64,000 nucleotides of DNA from contig NKPT01000011.1 of NCBI GenBank assembly GCA_002254845.1, forward strand, positions 16,103 through 80,102, read 5' to 3'. Source of the DNA: Chloracidobacterium sp. CP2_5A. Lineage in GTDB: Bacteria; Acidobacteriota; Blastocatellia; Chloracidobacteriales; Chloracidobacteriaceae. Under the pieces are notes generated by a model. That model was given only the letters and a program-made list of their open reading frames with translations. It was not told where the DNA came from and did no database searches. The translations under genes were made by a program, and so were the position numbers. Positions 15,575 to 61,965 of this stretch are shown piece by piece. Within the stretch, counting starts at the first letter, position 1, and each line of letters begins with the position of its first letter.

Positions 15575-17863
15575 ATGAACCGCCGCCAGGCCGCGCTGGA
15601 TTACCATGCCCAGGGACGCCACGGAAAAATCGAGGTCGTCCCGACCAAACCCTGTTTGACGCAACGCGACTTGTCGCTCGCTTACTCGCCGGGCGTTGCC
15701 GAGCCGTGCCTTGAAATCGCCCGCGATCCGGCGACAGCCTACGCCTACACGGCAAAAGGCAATCTCGTGGCCGTGGTCTCGAACGGGACGGCGGTGCTTG
15801 GTCTCGGCAACATCGGGGCGCTGGCCGGCAAGCCGGTCATGGAAGGCAAGGGCGTCTTGTTCAAGCGATTCGCCGACATTGACGTTTTCGATTTGGAGCT
15901 GGCGACCGAGGACCCGGAGGAGCTGATTAGAACGCTCAAAATCCTCGAGCCGACCTTTGGCGGCATCAATCTTGAGGACATCAAGGCGCCGGAGTGCTTT
16001 TACATTGAGCGCCGGTTGCGCGAGGAGCTTGAAATCCCGGTTTTTCATGACGACCAGCACGGCACGGCCATCATCTCCAGCGCCGCCATCGTCAACGCGC
16101 TGGAACTCGTGGGGAAATCGCTCGACAGCGTCAAAATTGTGTTTTCCGGGGCCGGAGCCAGCGCAATGGGGTGCGCTCGGATGTACAAGAAATTCGGCGT
16201 CCGGCCGGAAAACATCCTCATGTGCGACACCAAGGGCGTCATCTATCGCGGGCGGACGGAAGGCATGAACGAGCACAAAGCCGAGTTCGCCGTCGAAACC
16301 GACGCCCGGACGCTGGCCGACGCGCTTCGCGGGGCGGATGTTTTCGTCGGGCTTTCAGCCAAGGGCATGGTGACGGCCGAGATGCTCAAAGCGATGGCCG
16401 AGCGCCCGGTGGTGCTCGCGATGGCGAACCCGGACCCGGAAATCAGCTACGAGGAAGCCATTGCCGCGCGGCCTGACTGCATTATGGGGACCGGACGGAG
16501 CGACTATCCCAATCAAGTCAACAATGTGCTTGGGTTTCCCTTTATTTTTCGCGGCGCGCTGGACGCCCGCGCGCGGACGATTACGGACGGCATGATGATG
16601 GCGGCGGCGCGCGCGCTGGCGGCGCTCGCCAAGCAGGACGTGCCGGAAGCGGTGGCCAAAGCCTACGGCGTCTCGCACTTGGTTTTTGGTCCCGACTACA
16701 TTATTCCCAAGCCGTTTGACTACCGGGTGTTGATCTGGGTCGCCTCGGCCGTCGCGGAAGCCGCGATGCGCGATGGCGTGGCGCAGCTTCCGCTTGACTT
16801 GGAGGCGTACCGCGAGGAGCTTGCCAACCGACTAGGCAAGTCGCGCGAAACGCTGCGCATTATGTTCACCAAGGCGCGTCGCGCGCCGAAGCGGGTCGTC
16901 CTGCCGGAAGGCGACGACGACCGCGTGATTCGCGCCGCCGCCGCGCTGGCCGAAGATCACATCGCCCGCCCCATTCTGCTGGGCGATCCAGCGTTCATTC
17001 GCTCGCGCGCGGAAACGCTGCGACTGACCTTTGACCAGATTGAAATCATCTCGCCCAAGACTTCCGAGCGATTCGAGGACTATGCCGAGGCGCTGCATCG
17101 GCTGCGTCAGCGCAAGGGGCTGACGCGGGTTGGCGCGCGTCAAATGCTCAAGCGCGCCAACTACTTTGGCGCGATGATGGTGAGGCGCGGCGACGCGGAC
17201 GCGCTGGTGACAGGCGTGACCAGCGCCTACGCGGAAGCCCTCAAGCCGCTGCTGCGGGTGCTTGGCGCGGCCAGCGGCGTCCGGCGCGTCATGGGGCTGC
17301 ACCTGATGCTGGCTAAAAACCGCGCCTACTTCTTTGCCGATACCACTGTCAACATCGAGCCGACGGCGGAAGACCTGGCCGATATCGCCATTCATGCCGC
17401 CCGCGAGGCGGAACAGTTCGGCATTGAGCCGCGCGTCGCCTTGCTGTCATTTTCAACCTTCGGCAGCGTCCGGCACCCATTGGCGGAGAAGGTTCGGCTG
17501 GCGGTCGACTTGGCCCGGCAAAAACAGCCGTCGCTCATTATTGACGGCGAAGTCATGGCCGATGTCGCGCTGTCGTCCGAGCAACTGACGCGCGACTACC
17601 CGTTCGCCGCGCTGGGCGACAAGCGGACGACGGTGCTGGTCTTCCCTGACCTTCAGTCAGCCAATATCGCCTACAAGCTGCTGGCGACGCTGGGCGGCGC
17701 CGAAGCGGTTGGCCCGATTTTGATGGGGCTGTCGTACCCGGCGCATGTCCTGCCCAACAACGCTGAGGTCAAGGACATCATCAACTTGGCGGCCATCGCC
17801 GTCGTGGACGCGCAGGAGCGCCAGCGCCAGCCGGCGGCCTACGCCGCTGGACGGATGTGGTGA
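15575..17863 (+). CDS. maeB: NADP-dependent malic enzyme with C-terminal phosphotransacetylase-like domain
   Basis: [54 protein letters not shown]-terminal PTA-like [19 protein letters not shown]. Confidence 0.93.
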
Positions 17864-34793: not shown

Positions 34794-37700
34794 ATGCCAA
34801 AACAATATCGTTTCTGGATGCGACGGGTTGCTCTGCTGTTGGCGCTAGCGGCGGGAAGCCTTGTCCCAGCCATGGCGCAATCGGGCGCAACCGGCATCGC
34901 GGGCACCGTGCGAGACGAGCAGGGGCGCGTCATCGCCGGCGCGACCGTCACGCTCGCCGATGCCAACCGCGGCGCAACCCGGACCCAGTCTACTGACAAC
35001 AACGGCGCTTACAGCTTCAGTAACCTGATCACCGGGCGCTACAACCTGACGATCGAAGCTGGCGGCTTTAAGAAGAAAATCATCGAGAACATTCAAGGGC
35101 TTGTAGACAAAACCACGGATGTTTCGGTGACGCTGGAAGCCGGCGGCGCGGATGAAGTCGTCACGGTTTCCGCTAGCTCCTTGGAAGCGGTTATCAACAC
35201 GCAAAACGCCAGCCTCGGCAACAACTTCGTCGAGCAGCAAATCAAGCAACTGCCGCTCGAAGGGCGCAACGTCGCGGCGCTCTTGAGCTTGCAGCCGGGC
35301 GTGACGGCGGATGGCAGCGTCGCCGGCGGCCGCAGCGACCAAGCTAACATCACGCTCGACGGCGTGGACGTCAACGACCAAGTCAACGGCTTCGCCTTTA
35401 CCCCCGTGCTGCGCGTGACGCCGGATTCAGTCAGCGAGTTTCGCGTCACAACGGTCAATGCCGACGCCAACCAGGGGCGGTCGTCCGGCGCGCAGATTTC
35501 GCTCGTCACCAAGAGCGGGTCGAACGAGTTTCACGGCACCCTATTTCACTTCCACCGCAATACCATCACGTCGGCCAACGACTTTTTCAACAACCTGGCC
35601 GGCACGCGGCGGCCGCAGCTCATCCGCAACCAGTTCGGCGGCGCGATTGGCGGCCCGGTCATCAAGGATCGCTTCTTCTTCTTTTTCACCTACGAAGGTC
35701 TGCGCTTGGCGCAGGGAACGCCGGTCACGCGGATTGTCCCGCGTCCGACCATGGGACAGGGAACGCTCCGCTTTATCAACGCGAGCGGCGGCGTGACCAC
35801 GCTGACGCGCCCGCAACTAGAAGCTATTTTCCCGGCAGTCGGCCTCAACCCGGTCACGCTGCAACTGATGGCCCAGGCGGCGCAGCGATACCCAGTCAAC
35901 AACGACCAAGTAGGCGACGGCCTCAACACCGGCGGCTTCACCTTCAATGCGCCCCTGCCGGTGCGTCAGAACACCAGCATCGCGCGGCTCGATTGGAACG
36001 TTGATCGCCAGAACCGGCATGTTTTGTCGGCCCGGCTCAACTACCAACAGGACAACAGCGCCCGCGCCCCTCAACAGTTCCCTGATACGCCGACGCCAAC
36101 CGCCTGGGAGCATCCGACGGGGCTGGCTGTAAGCCATACCTGGACAGTCTCGAGCAACAAAATCAACGTTTTCCGATTTGGCATCACGCGCAATGCCTTC
36201 ACGCTGGGCGGCGACTCCAGCCAAAACTCGCTTAACTTGCGCGATGTGTTTCAGCCTTTCGCTTTCTCGCGGTCGCTGGCGCGGGTGTCGCCGGTGTATA
36301 ACTATGTCAATGACTTCACGCTCATTAAGGGCGGTCACTCGTTCCAGTTCGGCGGGAACGTCCGCATCATCCGCAACAAGGTGTTGAACTCGGCCCGGTC
36401 CTTTGACGCCATTGTGGCCAACTTCTCGTTTTATCAGCAAAGCGGCGCGGTTTTATCCAACCCGATCATCGCTGCCGGCTTTCCGATTAGCAGCGGCTTC
36501 CGCAGCCCGGTGCAAGTCGCCATGTCGGCGCTCATCGGCCGCGCGTCGCAGTATTCAGCCAACTTTAACTTCAATCGCGACGGGTCGCTGCTCAATAGCG
36601 GCGTGCCAATTCGCCGCGATGTGGCGACCGAGGAATACGAAGGCTATCTCCAAGACACCTGGCGCATTCGGTCGAACCTCACGCTCACGTATGGCATTCG
36701 CTACAGCGTCAGCCGCCCAGTCTATGAGCAAAACGGGCTTCAGGCGCGGACAACCGTCCCGCTGGGCGAGTACTTTCAGGGCCGCTTGCGCGGCATGGAA
36801 ACCGGCGTGCCCTTCAACGAGCGCATCGTGGTGGATTTGGCCGGCCCCGCCAACGGCAAGCCTGGCAACTACGAGATTGACTGGAATAACTGGCAGCCGC
36901 GCTTTGCCGTCGCCTGGTCGCCCCGCGCGGAAGGCGGCTTCTGGAAACGCCTCTTCGGCAACGAGGGCGACACCATCCTTCGCGGCGGTTACGGGCTAAT
37001 CAACGACTACTACGGCACGCAAATCGCCTTCCAGTTCGACAACAACAACACGCTCGGCTTTTCGTCGCAATCGCTGACGCCAGCCAACTCGTTCAACGTC
37101 ACAACGCGCCCCGGGCCATTAATCACCGGCGTCGGGCAGCAGGTGCGCGGCTTGCCGCTCATCACCATTCCGGGGCAGCTCAGCTTTCCGCGTCAGCAGC
37201 CGTCGTCGTTCGGCCGCATTCAAGCCATCGAGCAGTCGCTCGACGCCACAGTGCGCGCGCCCTACAACCACGTCTTCAACGCGACGATTGGGCGCAAGCT
37301 GCCGGCCGGACTTTACGTTGAAGCGTCTTACATCGGGCGCATCGGGCGGAACTTGCTCGCCACGCGCGATGTGGCGGCGCTCAACAACCTGCGCGATCCG
37401 CAGTCGGGTCAGGATTGGTACACCGTGGCGGGCATCCTTGCCGACCTGCGCGACCGGAACGCTCCGCTGTCGGCCGTGCCGAACCTCGCCTACTTCACTA
37501 ACCTGTTCCGCGGGGTTGACCTCATCGGGGCGCTGGGCGACTTCTTCGTGGGCGACGAATCCGCTTTTCTCGGCCTGACGCCAACGCAGGCGGTCTACGC
37601 CTCGATTGCGCGGATTCCCGTGCCGGGCATCGGCGTCATTGACGGCATCGCCGGCAGCGACTGGACGACCCTCCAGTTGGCGTTTGATTACGCCAACTTC

Positions 37701-38579
37701 TTCTTCCGTACCGATGGTCGCCCCGCCGCGCCGATTTTCTTCCAGCCGCAGTACGGAACGCTGTCCGCCTGGGGCAGCATCGCCACGTCGGATTACCACG
37801 GCTTTACGCTCTCGGTACGGCAACGCTACAAGGACCAGCTCACGTGGGACCTCAACTACACGCTGGCGAAGTCGCTCGACACGGCGTCGGGTCTTCAGCG
37901 GTTCGGGCAGTTTGGGAGCGCGTTCATCCTCAACCCGATTCGGCCGCGCGACAACCGGTCATTTTCGGACTTTGACACACGCCACGTCATCAACTTCAAC
38001 TCAATCTGGGACCTTCCCGTGGGGCGCGGGCGCGCCTTCGCCTCCGACATCCCGCGCTGGGCGGACGCCTTCATCGGCGGCTGGCAGTTGACGACGATTT
38101 TCCGGTGGAATTCCGGGCTGCCCGTGGACGCGCCCTTTGACGGGCGGCGCTGGGCGACGAACTGGAACGTTCAAAGCAACGGCGTGCCGGTGCGCCCGAT
38201 TTCATCGTCGCCGACGCGCAACGGCGCTGACGGGCGGCCAAACTTGTTCCGCGATCCGGTGGCGGCATCGCAGTCGTTCCGCAATCCGCGCGCCGGCGAG
38301 ACCGGCGGGCGAAACATCCTCCGCGATCCAGGCTTTGTGTCGCTCGACTTCGGGCTGGGCAAGTACTTCCGCATGCCGTGGAGCGAAAAGCAAACCCTGC
38401 TGTTCCGCTGGGAGGTCTTTAATGCGACCAATACGGCGAGCCTCACCGGCGCGCAGACGGTCAACTTCCAGCTTCCGCAGGATTCGACGACCAGCCAACC
38501 CGGACCCGGCTTTGGTCGCTTCACAGCGACGCAGGGGCCTCCGCGCGTGATGCAGTTTGCGCTGCGCTACACCTTCTGA
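34794..38579 (+). CDS. Oar-like TonB-dependent receptor with N-terminal carboxypeptidase-regulatory-like domain
   Basis: Signal peptide; GATGIAGTVRDEQGRVIAGATVTLADANRGATRTQSTDNNGAYSFSNL; plug-like and long beta-strand domain ending LRYTF. Confidence 0.92.
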   Translation: MPKQYRFWMRRVALLLALAAGSLVPAMAQSGATGIAGTVRDEQGRVIAGATVTLADANRGATRTQSTDNNGAYSFSNLITGRYNLTIEAGGFKKKIIENIQGLVDKTTDVSVTLEAGGADEVVTVSASSLEAVINTQNASLGNNFVEQQIKQLPLEGRNVAALLSLQPGVTADGSVAGGRSDQANITLDGVDVNDQVNGFAFTPVLRVTPDSVSEFRVTTVNADANQGRSSGAQISLVTKSGSNEFHGTLFHFHRNTITSANDFFNNLAGTRRPQLIRNQFGGAIGGPVIKDRFFFFFTYEGLRLAQGTPVTRIVPRPTMGQGTLRFINASGGVTTLTRPQLEAIFPAVGLNPVTLQLMAQAAQRYPVNNDQVGDGLNTGGFTFNAPLPVRQNTSIARLDWNVDRQNRHVLSARLNYQQDNSARAPQQFPDTPTPTAWEHPTGLAVSHTWTVSSNKINVFRFGITRNAFTLGGDSSQNSLNLRDVFQPFAFSRSLARVSPVYNYVNDFTLIKGGHSFQFGGNVRIIRNKVLNSARSFDAIVANFSFYQQSGAVLSNPIIAAGFPISSGFRSPVQVAMSALIGRASQYSANFNFNRDGSLLNSGVPIRRDVATEEYEGYLQDTWRIRSNLTLTYGIRYSVSRPVYEQNGLQARTTVPLGEYFQGRLRGMETGVPFNERIVVDLAGPANGKPGNYEIDWNNWQPRFAVAWSPRAEGGFWKRLFGNEGDTILRGGYGLINDYYGTQIAFQFDNNNTLGFSSQSLTPANSFNVTTRPGPLITGVGQQVRGLPLITIPGQLSFPRQQPSSFGRIQAIEQSLDATVRAPYNHVFNATIGRKLPAGLYVEASYIGRIGRNLLATRDVAALNNLRDPQSGQDWYTVAGILADLRDRNAPLSAVPNLAYFTNLFRGVDLIGALGDFFVGDESAFLGLTPTQAVYASIARIPVPGIGVIDGIAGSDWTTLQLAFDYANFFFRTDGRPAAPIFFQPQYGTLSAWGSIATSDYHGFTLSVRQRYKDQLTWDLNYTLAKSLDTASGLQRFGQFGSAFILNPIRPRDNRSFSDFDTRHVINFNSIWDLPVGRGRAFASDIPRWADAFIGGWQLTTIFRWNSGLPVDAPFDGRRWATNWNVQSNGVPVRPISSSPTRNGADGRPNLFRDPVAASQSFRNPRAGETGGRNILRDPGFVSLDFGLGKYFRMPWSEKQTLLFRWEVFNATNTASLTGAQTVNFQLPQDSTTSQPGPGFGRFTATQGPPRVMQFALRYTF

Positions 38580-49834: not shown

Positions 49835-52810
49835 TCAAAATGTAAAGCGCGCGCCGAGCTGCACCTGGCGCGGTCCGCCGAAGCGCGCTGTCGAAGGCGC
49901 GCTAAATGGCAGAAAGCCGGCCCGATTCAGCGCTGCCGTCGAAAGCGTCCCGTTCGCCAGCGGGCGCGGGCCTTCAACCGTGGCGATCGCGTCCACGTCG
50001 TAGTTTTTGTTCGTGTTGCGCGTCACGTTGAAAAACTCGGCCAGGAAATCGAGCCGCATTCGCTCGCCTATGCGGAACCCCTTGGCAACGCGCAAGTCGA
50101 GATTGAAGAAGTTGGGCTGACGGAACGAATTCCGCCCAACAACAACGCCGTTGATAATGGCCCGGTCGTTGTCATTGCCGTCGTTGTTGACGTCATCGCC
50201 AATGATGGCCGTATAGGGCAGCCCCGACCGCGCCACAATCAGCGCGCTCACGATGAAGCCGTAGGGCAAGTCCGCCAGGCCGCTCAAGTTGAAGTTATGC
50301 CGGATGTCCTGCTTGGACGGTCCGCGCTCCAGCTTCAGGTTAAACGGGTTGATGGCAAACTCCTGATTAAAGTTGCGCTCGTTCGAGTCGTCGTCCATCG
50401 TTCGCGAGAAGGTGTAGTTTGCCGTGAGCTGAAAGCGGTTGGCATAGCGGCGCGTGACGGTCAGCGTCCCGCCGTTGTAGCTCGAATGCGCCGACGACTC
50501 GTTGATGAGAATCGGGCCATAGTTGCGGCCATTCAGAATCTGAATCGGACGGAACGCCGTGTTGAAAAACACGTAGCCGGAGTCGCCAGCCACAACGTGG
50601 CCGGGGCTGCCCGGCGGCGGCAGGTTGCGGTTGACCCGGCGCTGCAAATCCCATGTCGCGTTGCGGATGAAGCCCACTGTCGCCGACCAGTTTTTGAAAA
50701 ACTGACGCTCAATCGTCAGCGCCGCCTGAAATGATCGCGGATTTTGGAAATCGCTCGCAAAGCCGTACACGCGCTGCGGGAAATCAATCGGCGCGAAGCC
50801 GGCCGGCAGCGTCGCGATGGCGTTTGGGAACGCCGGGAAAATCGCCGCCAGCAGCGCGTTGCGCCGCGCGCCGGACGGGATGTTGTTCGTGTCAATAGCC
50901 AGGTTCAGGATGCCGTTTTCCGTCGTGACGCGCTGAAACAGCGTGGCGGGCGTCCGGGCGGTAAACAGGCCGGACGAGGCGCGAACGACCGTTTTCTTGT
51001 CGCCCCCCACATTCCAGGCTAGCCCCAGCCGCGGCTGCCACTGCTCCAGATCGTTCGGGATGCGCTGCGTTTCGGGAATGTCCGGGTTCGGGGCGATGGG
51101 CTGCGGGTTGAACTGTCCTTCCCACCGGAGGCCGAGCGTGACGGTCAACGTCGGCAGGACGCGAATCTTGTCGGTGATGAAGGCGGCAATTTCCTGCTGC
51201 ACGCCCCGGAAGGTCGCCGGCTCCTGCGGCGCGCCTGGCAAGAAGCCGCGATAGCGGTTGATTGTGTTGACGCCGGTCAGCGCGCGGGTGTAGTTGAGCA
51301 GGGCGCTCCCGCCCGTAAAGCCGTACCGCCCTTGAATCGCCGCCGCCCGCTGCTGCTGGACGCGGTTGAAGTTCAGGTCAAAGCCGAAGCGCAGCTGATG
51401 GCGACCGCCAGTGAAACTCACGTTGTCGGAAAGCTGGAAGCGGCGCGTGCGGAACGCGCGCGGTCGGCCGTTGTCCCCGCCAACCGTCCCCACGCCCGAG
51501 ATGTCAATCTGCGAGCTGAGCGAGTTGGGCACTTCGTCGCGGTCATCGCCCGCGATCTGCCCGCGCAGCTCGTTGATAAAGCGGTCCGTCACAACCGTCA
51601 CGAGACTGGTCTTGAAACCGTGGCTGCTGTTTTGGCGCGCGTAGTTGACCGACTCGGCCGCCGTCTGCCGAGCGTTTTCAAAATTGAAGTTTTCGCCGCG
51701 CAGCCGCGTGTAGTTGTACTGCGCGTTGAGCGTGTTGCGGCTGTTGAGGAGGTAGTCGCTGCGCGCAAACAGCGCCGTTGGGTTGTTCGTGCCGCGCTTT
51801 TCGCCCTCAAGGTCGCGCAGGACCTGCGGCAGCGTCTGACCGGTCGGCACGTTGAAGCTGACCACAAATGGAACGCGGAGAAAGTTTTGCTCAATCGCCG
51901 CGAAGAAAAAGACGCGGTCGCGCTTGATGGGACCGCCGATGCTCCCTCCGAACTGATTTTGCAGATTGTCAAGATCGCGCCCGAAGGCGTCCGGCGAAGT
52001 CAGAAAGCGATTGCGGTTGAAGTAAAACGCTTCGCCATGAAACTCGTTGGTGCCGCTTTTGGTGACAACGTTGAGGAAACCGGCGTTGGTGCGCCCGATT
52101 TCGGCGCTCGCGCCCGCCCGCACAACCTGAAACTCGCGCACCGCCGATTGCGGGAAGAAAAAGACGGCCTCGTTGCCGCCGCGCTGGTTGCCCTGGAGCG
52201 GATCGTTGAAGTCGGCGCCGTCCACGGCGACATTCGAGTTGATGGAGCGCTGCCCGGCGACGACCAGGCCGCTGCGATCCTGCTCCTGCATAATGCCAGG
52301 CTGGAGTTGGAAGAATTCGGCGAAGTTGCGCCCGCGCGCCGGGAGGTCCCGAATCGCCCGCTCGCTGATGTTGAGACCGGTCGCCGATTCCTGCACGTCC
52401 ACCACGCCCTGGTCGGCGGTGACCTCGATGATTTCGCTGACCCCCTCGACTTCGAGCGTCAAGTCAGCCGACTCGGCGTTGCCGACGGTGAGCTTGACCA
52501 AGCGCTTTCCGGGCTTGCCACCCGCCATCGTCGCCTCGACCTCGTAAACGCCGACCGGCAGCACCCCGGCGGCGTAGCGCCCGTTGGCGTCCGTGGTTAC
52601 AGTCCGGATGTAGCCGGTTTCCCTATTTTTGATGACCACGGTCGCGCCGGCGACGGCGCCGCCGCTTTGATCCGAAACGACGCCTTCGATGCCGGCGCTG
52701 CCGGATTCAGACTGGGCGCTGGCAACAGCGAGGCAGCCGAACAGCATCCCGAAGAAACAGCCTGCGCTCAGCGCGCAGCTCCTTGCACCCAAACGCTTGA
52801 AAAACCACAT
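49835..52810 (-). CDS. Oar-like TonB-dependent receptor, second copy
   Basis: Start MWFFKRLGARSC at 52810 with AAAGGGA upstream; GSAGIEGVVSDQSGGAVAGATVVIKNRETGYIRTVTTDANGRYAAGVLPVGVYEVEA; ends GARFTF. Confidence 0.9.
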   Translation of the reverse strand: MWFFKRLGARSCALSAGCFFGMLFGCLAVASAQSESGSAGIEGVVSDQSGGAVAGATVVIKNRETGYIRTVTTDANGRYAAGVLPVGVYEVEATMAGGKPGKRLVKLTVGNAESADLTLEVEGVSEIIEVTADQGVVDVQESATGLNISERAIRDLPARGRNFAEFFQLQPGIMQEQDRSGLVVAGQRSINSNVAVDGADFNDPLQGNQRGGNEAVFFFPQSAVREFQVVRAGASAEIGRTNAGFLNVVTKSGTNEFHGEAFYFNRNRFLTSPDAFGRDLDNLQNQFGGSIGGPIKRDRVFFFAAIEQNFLRVPFVVSFNVPTGQTLPQVLRDLEGEKRGTNNPTALFARSDYLLNSRNTLNAQYNYTRLRGENFNFENARQTAAESVNYARQNSSHGFKTSLVTVVTDRFINELRGQIAGDDRDEVPNSLSSQIDISGVGTVGGDNGRPRAFRTRRFQLSDNVSFTGGRHQLRFGFDLNFNRVQQQRAAAIQGRYGFTGGSALLNYTRALTGVNTINRYRGFLPGAPQEPATFRGVQQEIAAFITDKIRVLPTLTVTLGLRWEGQFNPQPIAPNPDIPETQRIPNDLEQWQPRLGLAWNVGGDKKTVVRASSGLFTARTPATLFQRVTTENGILNLAIDTNNIPSGARRNALLAAIFPAFPNAIATLPAGFAPIDFPQRVYGFASDFQNPRSFQAALTIERQFFKNWSATVGFIRNATWDLQRRVNRNLPPPGSPGHVVAGDSGYVFFNTAFRPIQILNGRNYGPILINESSAHSSYNGGTLTVTRRYANRFQLTANYTFSRTMDDDSNERNFNQEFAINPFNLKLERGPSKQDIRHNFNLSGLADLPYGFIVSALIVARSGLPYTAIIGDDVNNDGNDNDRAIINGVVVGRNSFRQPNFFNLDLRVAKGFRIGERMRLDFLAEFFNVTRNTNKNYDVDAIATVEGPRPLANGTLSTAALNRAGFLPFSAPSTARFGGPRQVQLGARFTF

Positions 52811-52949
52811 AGGCGTCCCTTTCATGACTTTGACCAGAAAAGAAGCCTTGGAGCGAAACACCCGCGTGAAAACAGAGCCTTACGCAAATGTAACGCTTAT
52901 CTTTCGGGAATGGATAAACGCGGCGCTCGGCGGACGGAAGCGGCTTGCT

Positions 52950-55878: not shown

Positions 55879-57765
55879 ATGCCAAGCCTGATCGTCGGCA
55901 CGGCCGGCCACATTGACCACGGCAAGACCGCGCTGGTCCGCGCGCTGACCGGCCGCGATCCCGACCGGCTTCCCGAAGAAAAGCGCCGCGGCATGACAAT
56001 TGACCTGGGGTTTGCCGAGCTGACGCGCCACGGGCGGCGCTTCGCCTTTGTGGATGTTCCCGGCCATGAACGCTTCATCAAAAACATGCTCGCCGGAGCG
56101 CATGGGCTTGATCTTGTGTTGTTGGTCGTTGCGGCGGATGAGGGCGTCATGCCGCAAACCGTTGAGCACTTGGCAATCTGTCGGTTGCTTGGTCTTGCTC
56201 GCGGCGTCATCGCGTTGACCAAGCGCGATCTCGTCACGGACGAGTGGCTGGCGCTGGCTCGAGCGGATGTCGCGGCGCTGGTCGCCGACACGTTTCTGGC
56301 CGACAAGCCGGTTGTCGCGGTCAGCGCCAAAACCGGCGACGGACTGGACAGCTTGCTGGATGCGCTCGAAGCCGAAGCCGCCCTGGTCGGCGTCCGCGAC
56401 GCGACGCGCCCGCCGCGGCTCGCGATTGACCGCGTCTTCGTCAAGCGCGGCTTTGGCGCGGTTGTCACAGGAACGCTCCTGGCTGGAATGTTTCGCGTCG
56501 GCGATGAAGTCGGCATCGAGCCAGGCGGCCTGACGGCGCGCATTCGCGGGATTGAAGTTCATGGCGAAGCGCGGGAAGTTGCCCGGGCCGGCGAGCGGAC
56601 GGCGCTCAATTTGGCGGGGCTGGAGGCGACCGACCTGCGGCGCGGCCAGGTCGTCGCCCCGCCGCGGCGCTTTCAGGCGACTTCCCTGCTGGACGTCTGG
56701 CTAGAGCTCCTTTCAGACGCGCCCCAGGCGCTGCCAGACGAGGCGCGGGTTCGCCTTCACCACGGGACAAGCGAAGTCATGGCGCGGGTGACGCTGCTGG
56801 ACGGCGCTTGCGAGCTGCCGCCCGGCGGCGCAGGCTACGCCCAACTCCGCCTTGAAGCGCCGCTGCTAGCGCTGCCCGACGATCGCTTCATCATCCGGCG
56901 CTTTTCGCCGGCCGCGACGATTGGCGGCGGACGCATCCTCGACGCCCGGCCGCCGCGTCGTCGCGGTCGCCTGCGCGCGGCGGCCGGCTTCCTTGAAAAG
57001 GCGGACGCCGGAGGCGACCCGCGGCGCTTGGCTTTTGTCCGGCGGGCCGGCCCGGCGGGTCTGACGCTGGGCGAGCTGGCCCAGTTGACTGGCGACAGCG
57101 ATGCCGAAGCGGAAGCCTTTGCGCGGCGGACGGCAGATTGCGCGTACCTGGAGGCGAGCCGGCGCCTGGTCGCCCAGGCATCGCTCGACGAGCTGGCTCA
57201 AGCCATTCTCGCCGCGCTAACGGCAGCGCACCGGGAGCGTCCGCTTCAGCTTGAACTCCCGCGCGAAGACATCCGCAACCGCGCCGCCCGCCAGGTGCCG
57301 CCCGAAGCTTTTCAATGCGCGGTCACGAGGCTCGTCGAGCAAAAGCGCATCGTGGCGGACGCCCGCGCGATGCGGCTGGCGACGCATCAGGCTCGGCTTT
57401 CCGAAGCGGAGGCCGAGTTGAAAAACCGCGTCGAGCGCGTTTGCCGCGAAGCGGGATGGCGGCCGCCGACCCTTGCGGAGCTTGTCCGCGCCGCCGGCCT
57501 TGCGCCGGACCAAGCGCGAATGAGCGTCGAGGCGCTTGTGGCGGAGCGACGCATCCTGCGAGTGGCTGACTTTCTGCTCCACGCCGAAGCCGCCGCCGAA
57601 GTGGTCGCCCGCGCGCGACAGGCGAAACTGTCCGGCGAACGGCTTGACGTCGGCGATTTCAAGGCGATGTTTAATCTGCCGCGAAAGTACGCCATCCCAT
57701 TGTTGGAGTGGCTTGATCAAACCGGCGTTACGCGGCGCTACGGCGACAAGCGCATCCTGGCTTAA
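55879..57765 (+). CDS. selB: Selenocysteine-specific translation elongation factor
   Basis: [94 protein letters not shown]-terminal winged-helix segments. Confidence 0.95.
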
Positions 57766-59370: not shown

Positions 59371-60102
59371 TCACTCTGGAAGCGGACGGCGCTTGCCGGC
59401 GCGGCTGCGGAGGACCTCCGCCACATCGTGGGGCGTCAGGTCGCGCGCCGCCATTAGCACCAGCAAATGATAGAGCAAATCCGCCATTTCGGCCGCCAGT
59501 TCAAGCCGCTGGTCATTTTTGGCGGCGATGATGGTTTCCGAGGCTTCCTCGCCCACCTTCTTGAGGATTTTGTCAAGTCCGGCGGTGAACAGATAGGTCG
59601 TGTAAGCGCCTTCCGGACGCTTGGCCTTGCGGTCGCGGATGAGTTCGTACAGCTCGTCAAGCAGGATGCCAAGCTCGAGCGCGCTGTGTGGCACCAGCTT
59701 GACTTCTGGCGGCGCGATGGGCGGCGCGGCGGCGATCGATGGGCTGTTAGCGGGCGCTGGCGGCGGCGGCGCTGGCTTTTCAGACGGCGGGAAGACTTGG
59801 TTGAAAAAGCAACTGGTCGCGCCTGTATGGCAGGCCGGGCCCCGCGGCTCGACTCTGACGACCAGGGCGTCCTCATCGCAATCGAGGCGGATCTCGACGA
59901 CGCGCTGCGTATGACCGGAAGTCGCCCCCTTATGCCACAGAGACTGCCGCGACCGGCTCCAGAGCCAGACCTCGCCCGTCTCGCAGGTGAGTTGGTAGCT
60001 GGCGGCGTTCATGTAGGCAACCGTGAGGACTTCGTTGGTAGCGGCGTCCTGGATGACGACCGGCGCGATTCCGGTCGAGTCAAAGCGAATCGACTTCGTC
60101 AT
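59371..60102 (-). CDS. hisI: Bifunctional phosphoribosyl-AMP cyclohydrolase / phosphoribosyl-ATP pyrophosphatase (HisIE)
   Basis: [59 protein letters not shown]...[13 protein letters not shown]; HisE domain [36 protein letters not shown]. Start at 60102 preferred over 60213. Confidence 0.94.
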
Positions 60103-60306
60103 GGCTTTTGGCAAACAGACCACGGGGGTTTTAGCACAGCGCGTTCGTTTTCCAACAGAGACAAGCGTGTCGCCGCGCCGCCCGAGCGCGCGCGCCGCCA
60201 AGTCGCCAGCCAAGAGGATTCAGCGACTTGGCGGCAGACGCTAAGCCATCTCTTTCAAAGCGCGCCAAACAAAAAGCGCTTGACGGCAAAGCGCATTAGA
60301 AATAAA

Positions 60307-60328
60307 CATATAAGCAAGCGCTTATATG
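60307..60328. promoter_or_regulatory. Putative ArsR/SmtB operator
   Basis: Perfect inverted repeat CATATAAGC-AAGC-GCTTATATG just upstream of the ArsR gene (ATG 60342). Confidence 0.8.
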
Positions 60329-60341
60329 AAAGCGATGACCA

Positions 60342-60674
60342 ATGGCTTCCGCCTGCGTAACCGAACATCAAAGCTCTGAGCGCGAGCCGCTCGACGCCCA
60401 ACTCGCCTGGCGAGCGGCGGACGTGTTTAAGGCTTTCGCCGACCCGACGCGCGTGAAAATCATCGCCCTGCTTGACGCGGGCGAGCTGTGCGTCGGCGAG
60501 CTGTGCCTGACACTGGGCATGTCGCAGCCGGCGGTTTCCAGTCAGCTTCGCTTACTGCGCGCGCTCGGTATCGTCACGGTCCGCCGCGAGGGCAAGCATG
60601 CCTACTACGCGCTGGCGGATGAACACGTCCGTAACCTCTTTCACCAGGGCCTCGCTCATGCGCGACATGCATAG
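60342..60674 (+). CDS. ArsR/SmtB family metalloregulator, predicted zinc-type
   Basis: VFKAFADPTRVKIIALLDAGELCVGELCLTLGMSQPAVSSQLRLLRALGIVTVRREGKHAYYAL; C-terminal DEHVRNLFHQGLAHARH fits D-x-H-x10-H-x2-H. Confidence 0.93.
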   Translation: MASACVTEHQSSEREPLDAQLAWRAADVFKAFADPTRVKIIALLDAGELCVGELCLTLGMSQPAVSSQLRLLRALGIVTVRREGKHAYYALADEHVRNLFHQGLAHARHA

Positions 60675-60689
60675 GCGCGCATAAGCGCG
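60670..60689. repeat. CATAGGCGCG/CATAAGCGCG tandem duplication at the ArsR stop codon (period 10)
   Basis: 60670-60679 and 60680-60689, one mismatch; TAG stop 60672-60674 and copied TAA 60682-60684. Confidence 0.75.
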
Positions 60690-60725
60690 GCGACCCGACT
60701 TCGCTCGAAAGGAAGCGTCATCATC

Positions 60726-61061
60726 ATGCCTCATTGCTCCACTCACGCCGACCATACGCACGTTCACAGCGCCAACTGCGGCCACACCCGCATTCAGCAC
60801 GACGACCACGTGGATTATCTCCACGACGGGCACCTTCATTTTCAGCATGGCGACCACTATGACGAGCACGCGCTCGCCGTCAGCGCGACGAACCCCGACG
60901 GCTGCGCGCCGCTGGCGACCGCGTGCGAACACGTCCATGGGCCTGACTGCGGTCACGAAGCCGTCCCGCATGGCGACCATGTGGATTACCTCGTCAACGG
61001 CCGCCTGCACCGCGTCCACGACGGACACTGCGACGACCACGGGCCCGTGGTCGTCCTGTAG
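60726..61061 (+). CDS. Histidine-rich putative metal-binding protein with internal duplication
   Basis: 111 aa with 23 His; CGHTRIQHDDHVDYLHDGHLHFQHGDHYDEH and CGHEAVPHGDHVDYLVNGRLHRVHDGHCDDH. Confidence 0.85.
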   Translation: MPHCSTHADHTHVHSANCGHTRIQHDDHVDYLHDGHLHFQHGDHYDEHALAVSATNPDGCAPLATACEHVHGPDCGHEAVPHGDHVDYLVNGRLHRVHDGHCDDHGPVVVL

Positions 61062-61071
61062 TCTGAAACCC

Positions 61072-61965
61072 TCAGTAGCCGGTCGCCTCGGCGTCGGCGC
61101 GACCGGCGAAGCTTTCGACGCGAAACACCCGGGTTTCAAGCCGCCCGTCGGGATAGAGCCACAGTCGGCGGTAGCCCGGCGCGCGCTGGTCGATGCCGAA
61201 CTGAGCCGTTTGCGGCCTGAACTGAATGCAGGTCGAAGGCGAGGCCATCAGCCGGACGCCCCGGCGCTCGATGTCAATCTCCTGGTGAACATGCCCCCAC
61301 AACACCGCGCGGACGCTCGCCCAGCGGTCGAGCGTCTCAAAAAAGGCGTCGGCATTCGCCAGGCCGATGCTGTCCATCCACTGCGCGTTGACCGAAACCG
61401 GGTTGTGGTGGAGGCACACCAGCGCCGGGCGGTCGGCCTGCGCCGCCAGGCTCGCGTCGAGGCGGGCTAGCTCGGCGTCGGAGAGTCGCCCGCCGACTTC
61501 GCCGGGCACCGTCGAGTCGAGCAAAATGACCTGCCAGTTGCCAATGATGGCTTCGCGCTCCGGACGCAGCGGCGGCTTGACCAGCGCCGCGCGCATCACT
61601 GGCGGCGCGTCGTGATTGCCGGGCAGCCAATAGACCGGAGGCGGCGCGGCGCAGGCGGCGGCAAAGGCCGCTAAGGCTTCCGTCAAATGCGCATAAGCTT
61701 CGGCCGCGCCATCCTGCGCCAGATCGCCGGTCGCCAGCGCGGCGTCCGGCGCGGACTGCGCGGCATCCGCCAGGACGGCGGTCAGCGAGTCGTAGGTGTT
61801 CATCCCCAACAGCCGTCCATCGCGCTTGGCGAACAGGTGCGTGTCGGTGATGTGCAAGACGCTCGCCGGAGCGTCCTGGCGCGGGGAGGGCATCGAGGAG
61901 CGATTGGGCATAGGCATCCGAAACGGGCGCGGAGGAGGCAAAGAAAAGCCTTTTCGTATTGGCAA
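61072..61965 (-). CDS. cpdA: Metallophosphoesterase, 3',5'-cyclic-AMP phosphodiesterase CpdA-like
   Basis: VLHITDTHLFAKRDGRLLGMNTYDSL, ALATGDLAQDG, YWLPGNHDAPPVM, LVCLHHNPVSVNAQWMDSIGL, LWGHVHQE. Confidence 0.9.
   Translation of the reverse strand: MPIRKGFSLPPPRPFRMPMPNRSSMPSPRQDAPASVLHITDTHLFAKRDGRLLGMNTYDSLTAVLADAAQSAPDAALATGDLAQDGAAEAYAHLTEALAAFAAACAAPPPVYWLPGNHDAPPVMRAALVKPPLRPEREAIIGNWQVILLDSTVPGEVGGRLSDAELARLDASLAAQADRPALVCLHHNPVSVNAQWMDSIGLANADAFFETLDRWASVRAVLWGHVHQEIDIERRGVRLMASPSTCIQFRPQTAQFGIDQRAPGYRRLWLYPDGRLETRVFRVESFAGRADAEATGY

Follow-up and report, generated by a model that had tools for sequence, protein, structure and literature searches.

A histidine-rich protein encoded beside an ArsR/SmtB-type sensor in Chloracidobacterium: a candidate zinc-buffering module from a widespread family

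The ArsR-HR locus

We analysed a stretch of 64,000 nucleotides from Chloracidobacterium sp. CP2_5A, referred to below as the window. Within it, a gene for an ArsR/SmtB-family repressor (ArsR in the following) is succeeded on the same strand by a gene for a His-rich protein, which we call HR (Table 1). On its upstream side, ArsR is flanked by a divergent HisIE fusion gene with PRA-CH and PRA-PH domains (59371-60102); in other genomes, HisI-like genes are repeatedly met close to HR, often within zinc-limitation clusters. The other neighbour of the pair encodes a calcineurin-like phosphoesterase, so that the absence of an adjacent exporter, asserted in a preliminary description of the locus, holds true. 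The same description had pointed out the perfect inverted repeat ahead of ArsR, the D-x-H-x10-H-x2-H ending of this protein and, behind it, the internally duplicated HR with its many His residues; all of these were found at the positions and in the form described. Elsewhere in the window, we observed genes for a SelB-like selenocysteine elongation factor (55879-57765), a fusion of malic enzyme with a phosphate acetyltransferase-like domain (15575-17863) and two large beta-barrel proteins of the outer membrane that contain carboxypeptidase-regulatory-like domains (34794-38579 and 49835-52861). A search for tRNA in the window found none.

Table 1. Features of the ArsR-HR locus, with positions counted from the first letter of the window.
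Feature	Position	Strand	Remarks
Putative -35 hexamer TTGACG	60280-60285	+	17 nt ahead of TAAACA at 60303-60308
12-2-12 framing of the operator-like repeat, AACATATAAGCA-AG-CGCTTATATGAA	60305-60330		Overlaps the putative -10
Operator-like inverted repeat, CATATAAGC-AAGC-GCTTATATG	60307-60328	.	Perfect 9-4-9, 13 nt before the ArsR ATG
ArsR/SmtB-family repressor, 110 aa	60342-60674	+	Pfam, NCBIfam and SmtB matches
HR, 111-aa His-rich protein, proposed zinc buffer/chaperone	60726-61061	+	Starts 51 nt past the ArsR stop
HR repeat 1, residues 16-48, proposed tetra-His row H25/H28/H41/H44	60771-60869	+	Predicted strands, conservation
HR repeat 2, residues 73-105, proposed tetra-His row H82/H85/H98/H101	60942-61040	+	Predicted strands, conservation

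ArsR passes the cut-offs of both Pfam PF01022 HTH_5 (6e-15; 55.3 bits, cut-off 22) and NCBIfam NF033788 (99.8 bits, cut-off 55). Its closest solved relative is SmtB (1r1t, E 1.8e-21), with NmtR and CzrA next, in agreement with the SmtB-like character ascribed to it at the outset. The C-terminal end of the protein, DEHVRNLFHQGLAHARHA, fits the alpha-5 site D-x-H-x10-H-x2-H, and its segment DEHVRNLFHQGLAHARH aligns over the SmtB C-terminus, where the alpha-5 ligands lie. CzrA shares the D-x-H, H-x2-H ligand pattern of the window ArsR. Besides, the protein has an N-terminal C5-x3-H9 and an ELCVGEL in helix 3, which we take to resemble the alpha-3N site of SmtB. Judging by the domain scores, the ligands and the 12-2-12-type operator, the window ArsR can be placed in the alpha-5 subgroup. 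The Csa3/CasR matches that PADLOC returned for ArsR most likely reflect a shared winged helix.

Taken alone, the 9-4-9 repeat is only modestly unlikely: when the 239-nt intergenic stretch was shuffled by dinucleotides, 46/3000 shuffles (about 1.5%) contained a perfect 9-bp repeat whose arms were separated by up to 8, and the whole window holds 20 starts of such repeats. What makes the operator reading of the preliminary description credible is that the repeat is kept in relatives and is unique in the genome. A search at up to 1 mismatch recovered it a single time in 3.4 Mb; therefore, control looks local. In eight relatives within the genus and family, the DNA ahead of the ArsR gene contains TTGAC(A/G) and then an imperfect, A/T-rich repeat that approximates ATATAAxCA-xx-TGCTTATAT; the half-sites and TTGAC are kept, and the flanking DNA has diverged. 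TTGAC is invariant in 6/6 aligned upstream regions of the window's family and is present in 9/9 listed regions. In the 12-2-12 framing, 9/12 positions match, the core being the perfect 9-4-9 repeat. AzuR/SmtB repressors act on metallothioneins via 12-2-12 repeats (PMC8790569), and both the promoter position and the 12-2-12 form of our repeat agree with the SmtB/ArsR sites described there. A generic scan called no sigma-70 promoter at the locus, and the -35 and -10 elements remain a proposal. With approximate Zur-box patterns, nothing resembling a Zur site was found upstream of the pair in the window.

The HR protein and its relatives

HR contains 23 His and 6 Cys in its 111 residues, and its two internal copies are identical at 17/33 residues, a value reached in 0/20,000 shuffles of one copy. 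Modelled by AlphaFold with 72 homologues, HR is confidently predicted to form two copies of a four-stranded beta meander with two-residue turns (pLDDT 89.5, pTM 0.81). The model built without an alignment has low confidence (pLDDT 45), yet its strands are nearly unchanged. From the strand boundaries of the predicted model we deduced two rows of His: pairing residues across the two-residue turns aligns H25/H28/H41/H44 and, equivalently, the four listed His of repeat 2 (Table 1). All four His of row 1 are kept in 70/72 sequences and those of row 2 in 71/72; in both row-1 exceptions, H41 and H44 are lost together. On the predicted fold, one tetra-His metal site per HR repeat appears plausible.

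Neither Pfam, NCBIfam and PHROGs nor the PDB (profile search up to E 10) yielded a significant match to HR, and the best Foldseek match of the HR model in the PDB had an E of 2.2, none being significant. Weak EutQ and DUF3659 matches were set aside, the EutQ score in the window lying far below the cut-off. A metallothionein of the SmtA/BmtA type was rejected as well: HR is not Cys-rich and is devoid of significant Pfam or NCBIfam matches. In a structure library, the HR model is matched by A0A5K0U9W0, a giant-virus cation-efflux-type protein, at prob 0.99 and E 1.9e-3, with 34% identity in an alignment of 104 columns. Such a structural match hints that HR domains may also occur fused to CDF transporters.

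Proteins with CGH/DHxDYL motifs had been supposed to be widespread and uncharacterised, and the data bear this out, with at least 574 relatives confirmed in a genome scan and no significant family-model match. The 80 best-scoring of these relatives, which we examined, span Pseudomonadota, Acidobacteriota, Chloroflexota, Planctomycetota, Verrucomicrobiota, Myxococcota, Bacillota and others. HR is present in 10/10 genomes of the window's family (Chloracidobacteriaceae) and in 11/199 sampled genomes of its phylum (Acidobacteriota); among viral contigs, one HR locus was found. Plasmid records label HR "hypothetical protein", and a 49-aa single-repeat form is labelled "zinc transporter permease". 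The latter annotation, carried by an actinobacterial relative from a Rhodococcus plasmid (L097:4986-5135), is probably a mistake, because a peptide so small and hydrophilic makes an implausible permease; it has a single copy of the CGH/DHVDY repeat, of which HR has two. No description of the HR family was found among open-licence papers, a scope in which an account in a subscription journal may be missed. Overall, HR apparently represents a deep, multi-phylum and widespread family, unnamed and without a curated model.

Gene neighbourhoods of HR

The surroundings of HR were surveyed at 90 loci, a non-random sample made up of the best-scoring 80 of the at least 574 relatives and of those from the window's phylum, with neighbour genes called by a simple script that may miss some of them. 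Conserved links of HR to ArsR and to zinc genes had been set beforehand as a test of the preliminary description, and both are present (28/90 and 22/90 loci, respectively). At the 28 loci, ArsR immediately precedes HR on the same strand, and 22/28 fall outside the window's family, including Pseudomonadota, Planctomycetota, Myxococcota and others. Within the family, ArsR lies just upstream of HR in 9/9 relatives and has a complete alpha-5 site in 8/9, the remaining one (L006) lacking the fourth ligand only. Among all HR-linked ArsRs, the full alpha-5 site is found in 25/28 and the first three ligands in 27/28. ArsR-HR pairs also reside on plasmids of Pantoea and Pediococcus, where ArsR again has the alpha-5 motif. 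At one locus (L009), ArsR and HR share one open frame without a stop, for which an assembly error is possible.

The zinc markers—ZnuA, ZnuB, COG0523, Fur-family and second ThrRS genes—were counted within 6 kb of HR; HisI paralogues and TonB receptors are further neighbours. ArsR and a zinc marker occur together at four loci of 90, and at one locus (L033) the ArsR-HR pair adjoins ZnuA, ZnuB and a Fur-family gene. On a Paraburkholderia plasmid, the genes next to HR encode a zinc ABC transporter and a GTP-binding protein. Zur-box-like palindromes were found upstream in 15/63 loci without ArsR, against 1.1 expected in shuffles, a rough figure since the patterns were approximate and the shuffles preserved base composition only. 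In a Chloroflexota MAG (L046:5327-5880), L28- and S18-like ribosomal protein genes, recognised by eye, adjoin HR, and a Fur-family gene lies downstream of HR, on the opposite side; such an arrangement suggests a Zur regulon. In two Bradyrhizobium genomes (L035 and L043), a CDF-family transporter gene follows HR on the same strand at 126-169 nt. On the HR tree, which is poorly resolved and from which we draw no conclusion, the association with ArsR required at least 20 changes (shuffled mean 24), only 2 of them forced by well-supported branches. Overall, the gene context provides good support for a link between the HR family and zinc, but a link to sensors of excess and of starvation alike.

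The genome from which the window comes contains one CDF, three Fur-family and four cobW-family matches, the sole CDF match being located on another contig. ZnuA and ZIP gave no match in this genome, and at 95% completeness these absences are likely. An exporter or resistance operon of the CzrA-CzrB or ZiaR-ZiaA type was ruled out, there being no exporter beside the sensor.

A candidate zinc buffer and its alternatives

That the ArsR-HR pair is real and linked to zinc seems well supported by these comparisons, and the proposal of zinc storage, buffering or delivery first made for the pair is supported by its gene context. We favour, as a probable though by no means certain account, a self-contained and autoregulated zinc buffer module of the SmtB/SmtA kind, in which an unrelated, His-based fold would take metallothionein's place. 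Without surplus zinc, an ArsR dimer would sit on the repeat over the promoter and repress the operon made up of its own gene and that of HR. A rise in cytosolic Zn(II), or in another metal fitting the alpha-5 site, would lead to metal binding by ArsR, the repressor would leave the repeat and both genes would be co-transcribed and expressed. HR would then bind zinc mainly via the two four-His rows, one per beta meander, with extra Cys, Asp and His ligands. The resulting decrease in free zinc would let ArsR re-bind the repeat, and the zinc held on HR might later be passed to apo-proteins. In other lineages with Zur-type contexts, HR would be made in scarcity, as a chaperone or as a zinc absorber on re-supply.

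SmtB-SmtA of Synechococcus and AzuR-NmtA of Anabaena (PMC8790569) come closest to such a module. As here, an alpha-5 ArsR/SmtB repressor is combined with a 12-2-12-like promoter repeat, and the target is a small metal-binding protein and no exporter, metal binding by HR being predicted. However, SmtA and NmtA are Cys-cluster metallothioneins, whereas HR is His-based with a predicted beta-meander fold, and azuR and nmtA form no operon (PMC8790569), whereas in the window the genes of sensor and target lie side by side on the same strand. In Synechococcus WH8102, the metallothionein BmtA sets a precedent for a zinc store under Zur, which activates bmtA at high zinc (PMC9337993). BmtA is a zinc-banking protein wired to a zinc sensor, as HR would be, but the proteins are unrelated; HR has an ArsR repressor here and, elsewhere, Zur-type sites that would be repressive, judging by position only. 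CzrA and NmtR belong to the same alpha-5 sensor family as the window ArsR, but they control exporters, and ArsR has no exporter adjacent to it.

The zinc-starvation neighbours of many relatives, some of which also have Zur-box-like sites, were not anticipated in the preliminary description and argue against a purely zinc-excess role. Zur-type relatives should be made when zinc is scarce and therefore fit poorly with a simple excess-zinc sponge. HR might instead be a zinc chaperone or allocator for scarcity, comparable to the COG0523 GTPases, which are zinc-linked and often His-rich (PMC2770081) and share gene neighbourhoods with HR; here, ArsR would free HR when zinc arrives, for delivery to client enzymes. 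This proposal draws on the ZnuA, ZnuB, COG0523, second ThrRS, HisI, Fur-family and TonB receptor genes near HR, on the roughly estimated excess of Zur-box-like palindromes and on the ribosomal protein and Fur-family genes of the Chloroflexota MAG, and in a genome without a ZnuA or ZIP match efficient zinc use could matter. Nevertheless, we find it rather unlikely: the window has a sensor of the type that metal, rather than starvation, relieves, and the ArsR-HR pair has no conserved client or GTPase partner beside it. HR itself differs from the COG0523 proteins in being too small for a GTPase domain, with no match to one in Pfam or NCBIfam.

It is improbable, too, that the module answers mainly to a metal other than zinc, be it Cd, Co, Ni, Pb or Cu. 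The neighbourhoods of the relatives are those of zinc homeostasis, and the genes recurring around HR revealed no cluster recognisable as one for nickel, cobalt or copper, even though alpha-5 ArsR proteins vary in metal preference, NmtR also scores well against ours, and His-rich proteins can bind Ni and Cu, with Cys contained in HR as well. We give very little credence to the idea that a minus-strand terminator, and no operator, lies at 60307-60328 and that this ArsR regulates neither gene. Scanned on the minus strand, the repeat does look like a terminator hairpin followed by a T-rich tail, a detail absent from the preliminary description. However, several relatives keep the half-sites without perfect complementarity, always just downstream of TTGAC, and it is because the hairpin pairing is missing in them that we prefer an operator. 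Moreover, the right-hand minus-strand gene ends at 61072, some 740 nt away, and the position and 12-2-12 form of the repeat match known SmtB/ArsR sites (PMC8790569).

Coming back to the zinc buffer module, our best reading is that ArsR-HR would work like smtB-smtA, yet HR is not a metallothionein. More tentatively, HR might be the founding example of a class, so far unrecognised and spread over many phyla, of folded, His-based zinc buffers, possibly with two tetra-His sites on tandem beta meanders and wired, depending on the lineage, to opposite sensors: ArsR, which zinc relieves, and Zur, which starvation relieves. Zinc buffering and storage in bacteria without an evident metallothionein are poorly understood. 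HR combines high conservation and a wide distribution with a context that ties it to zinc, and it apparently has no curated family model. Its predicted tetra-His rows offer a direct test by mutagenesis, and the two-gene ArsR-HR module, which is also plasmid-borne, would suit as an experimental system for zinc buffering.
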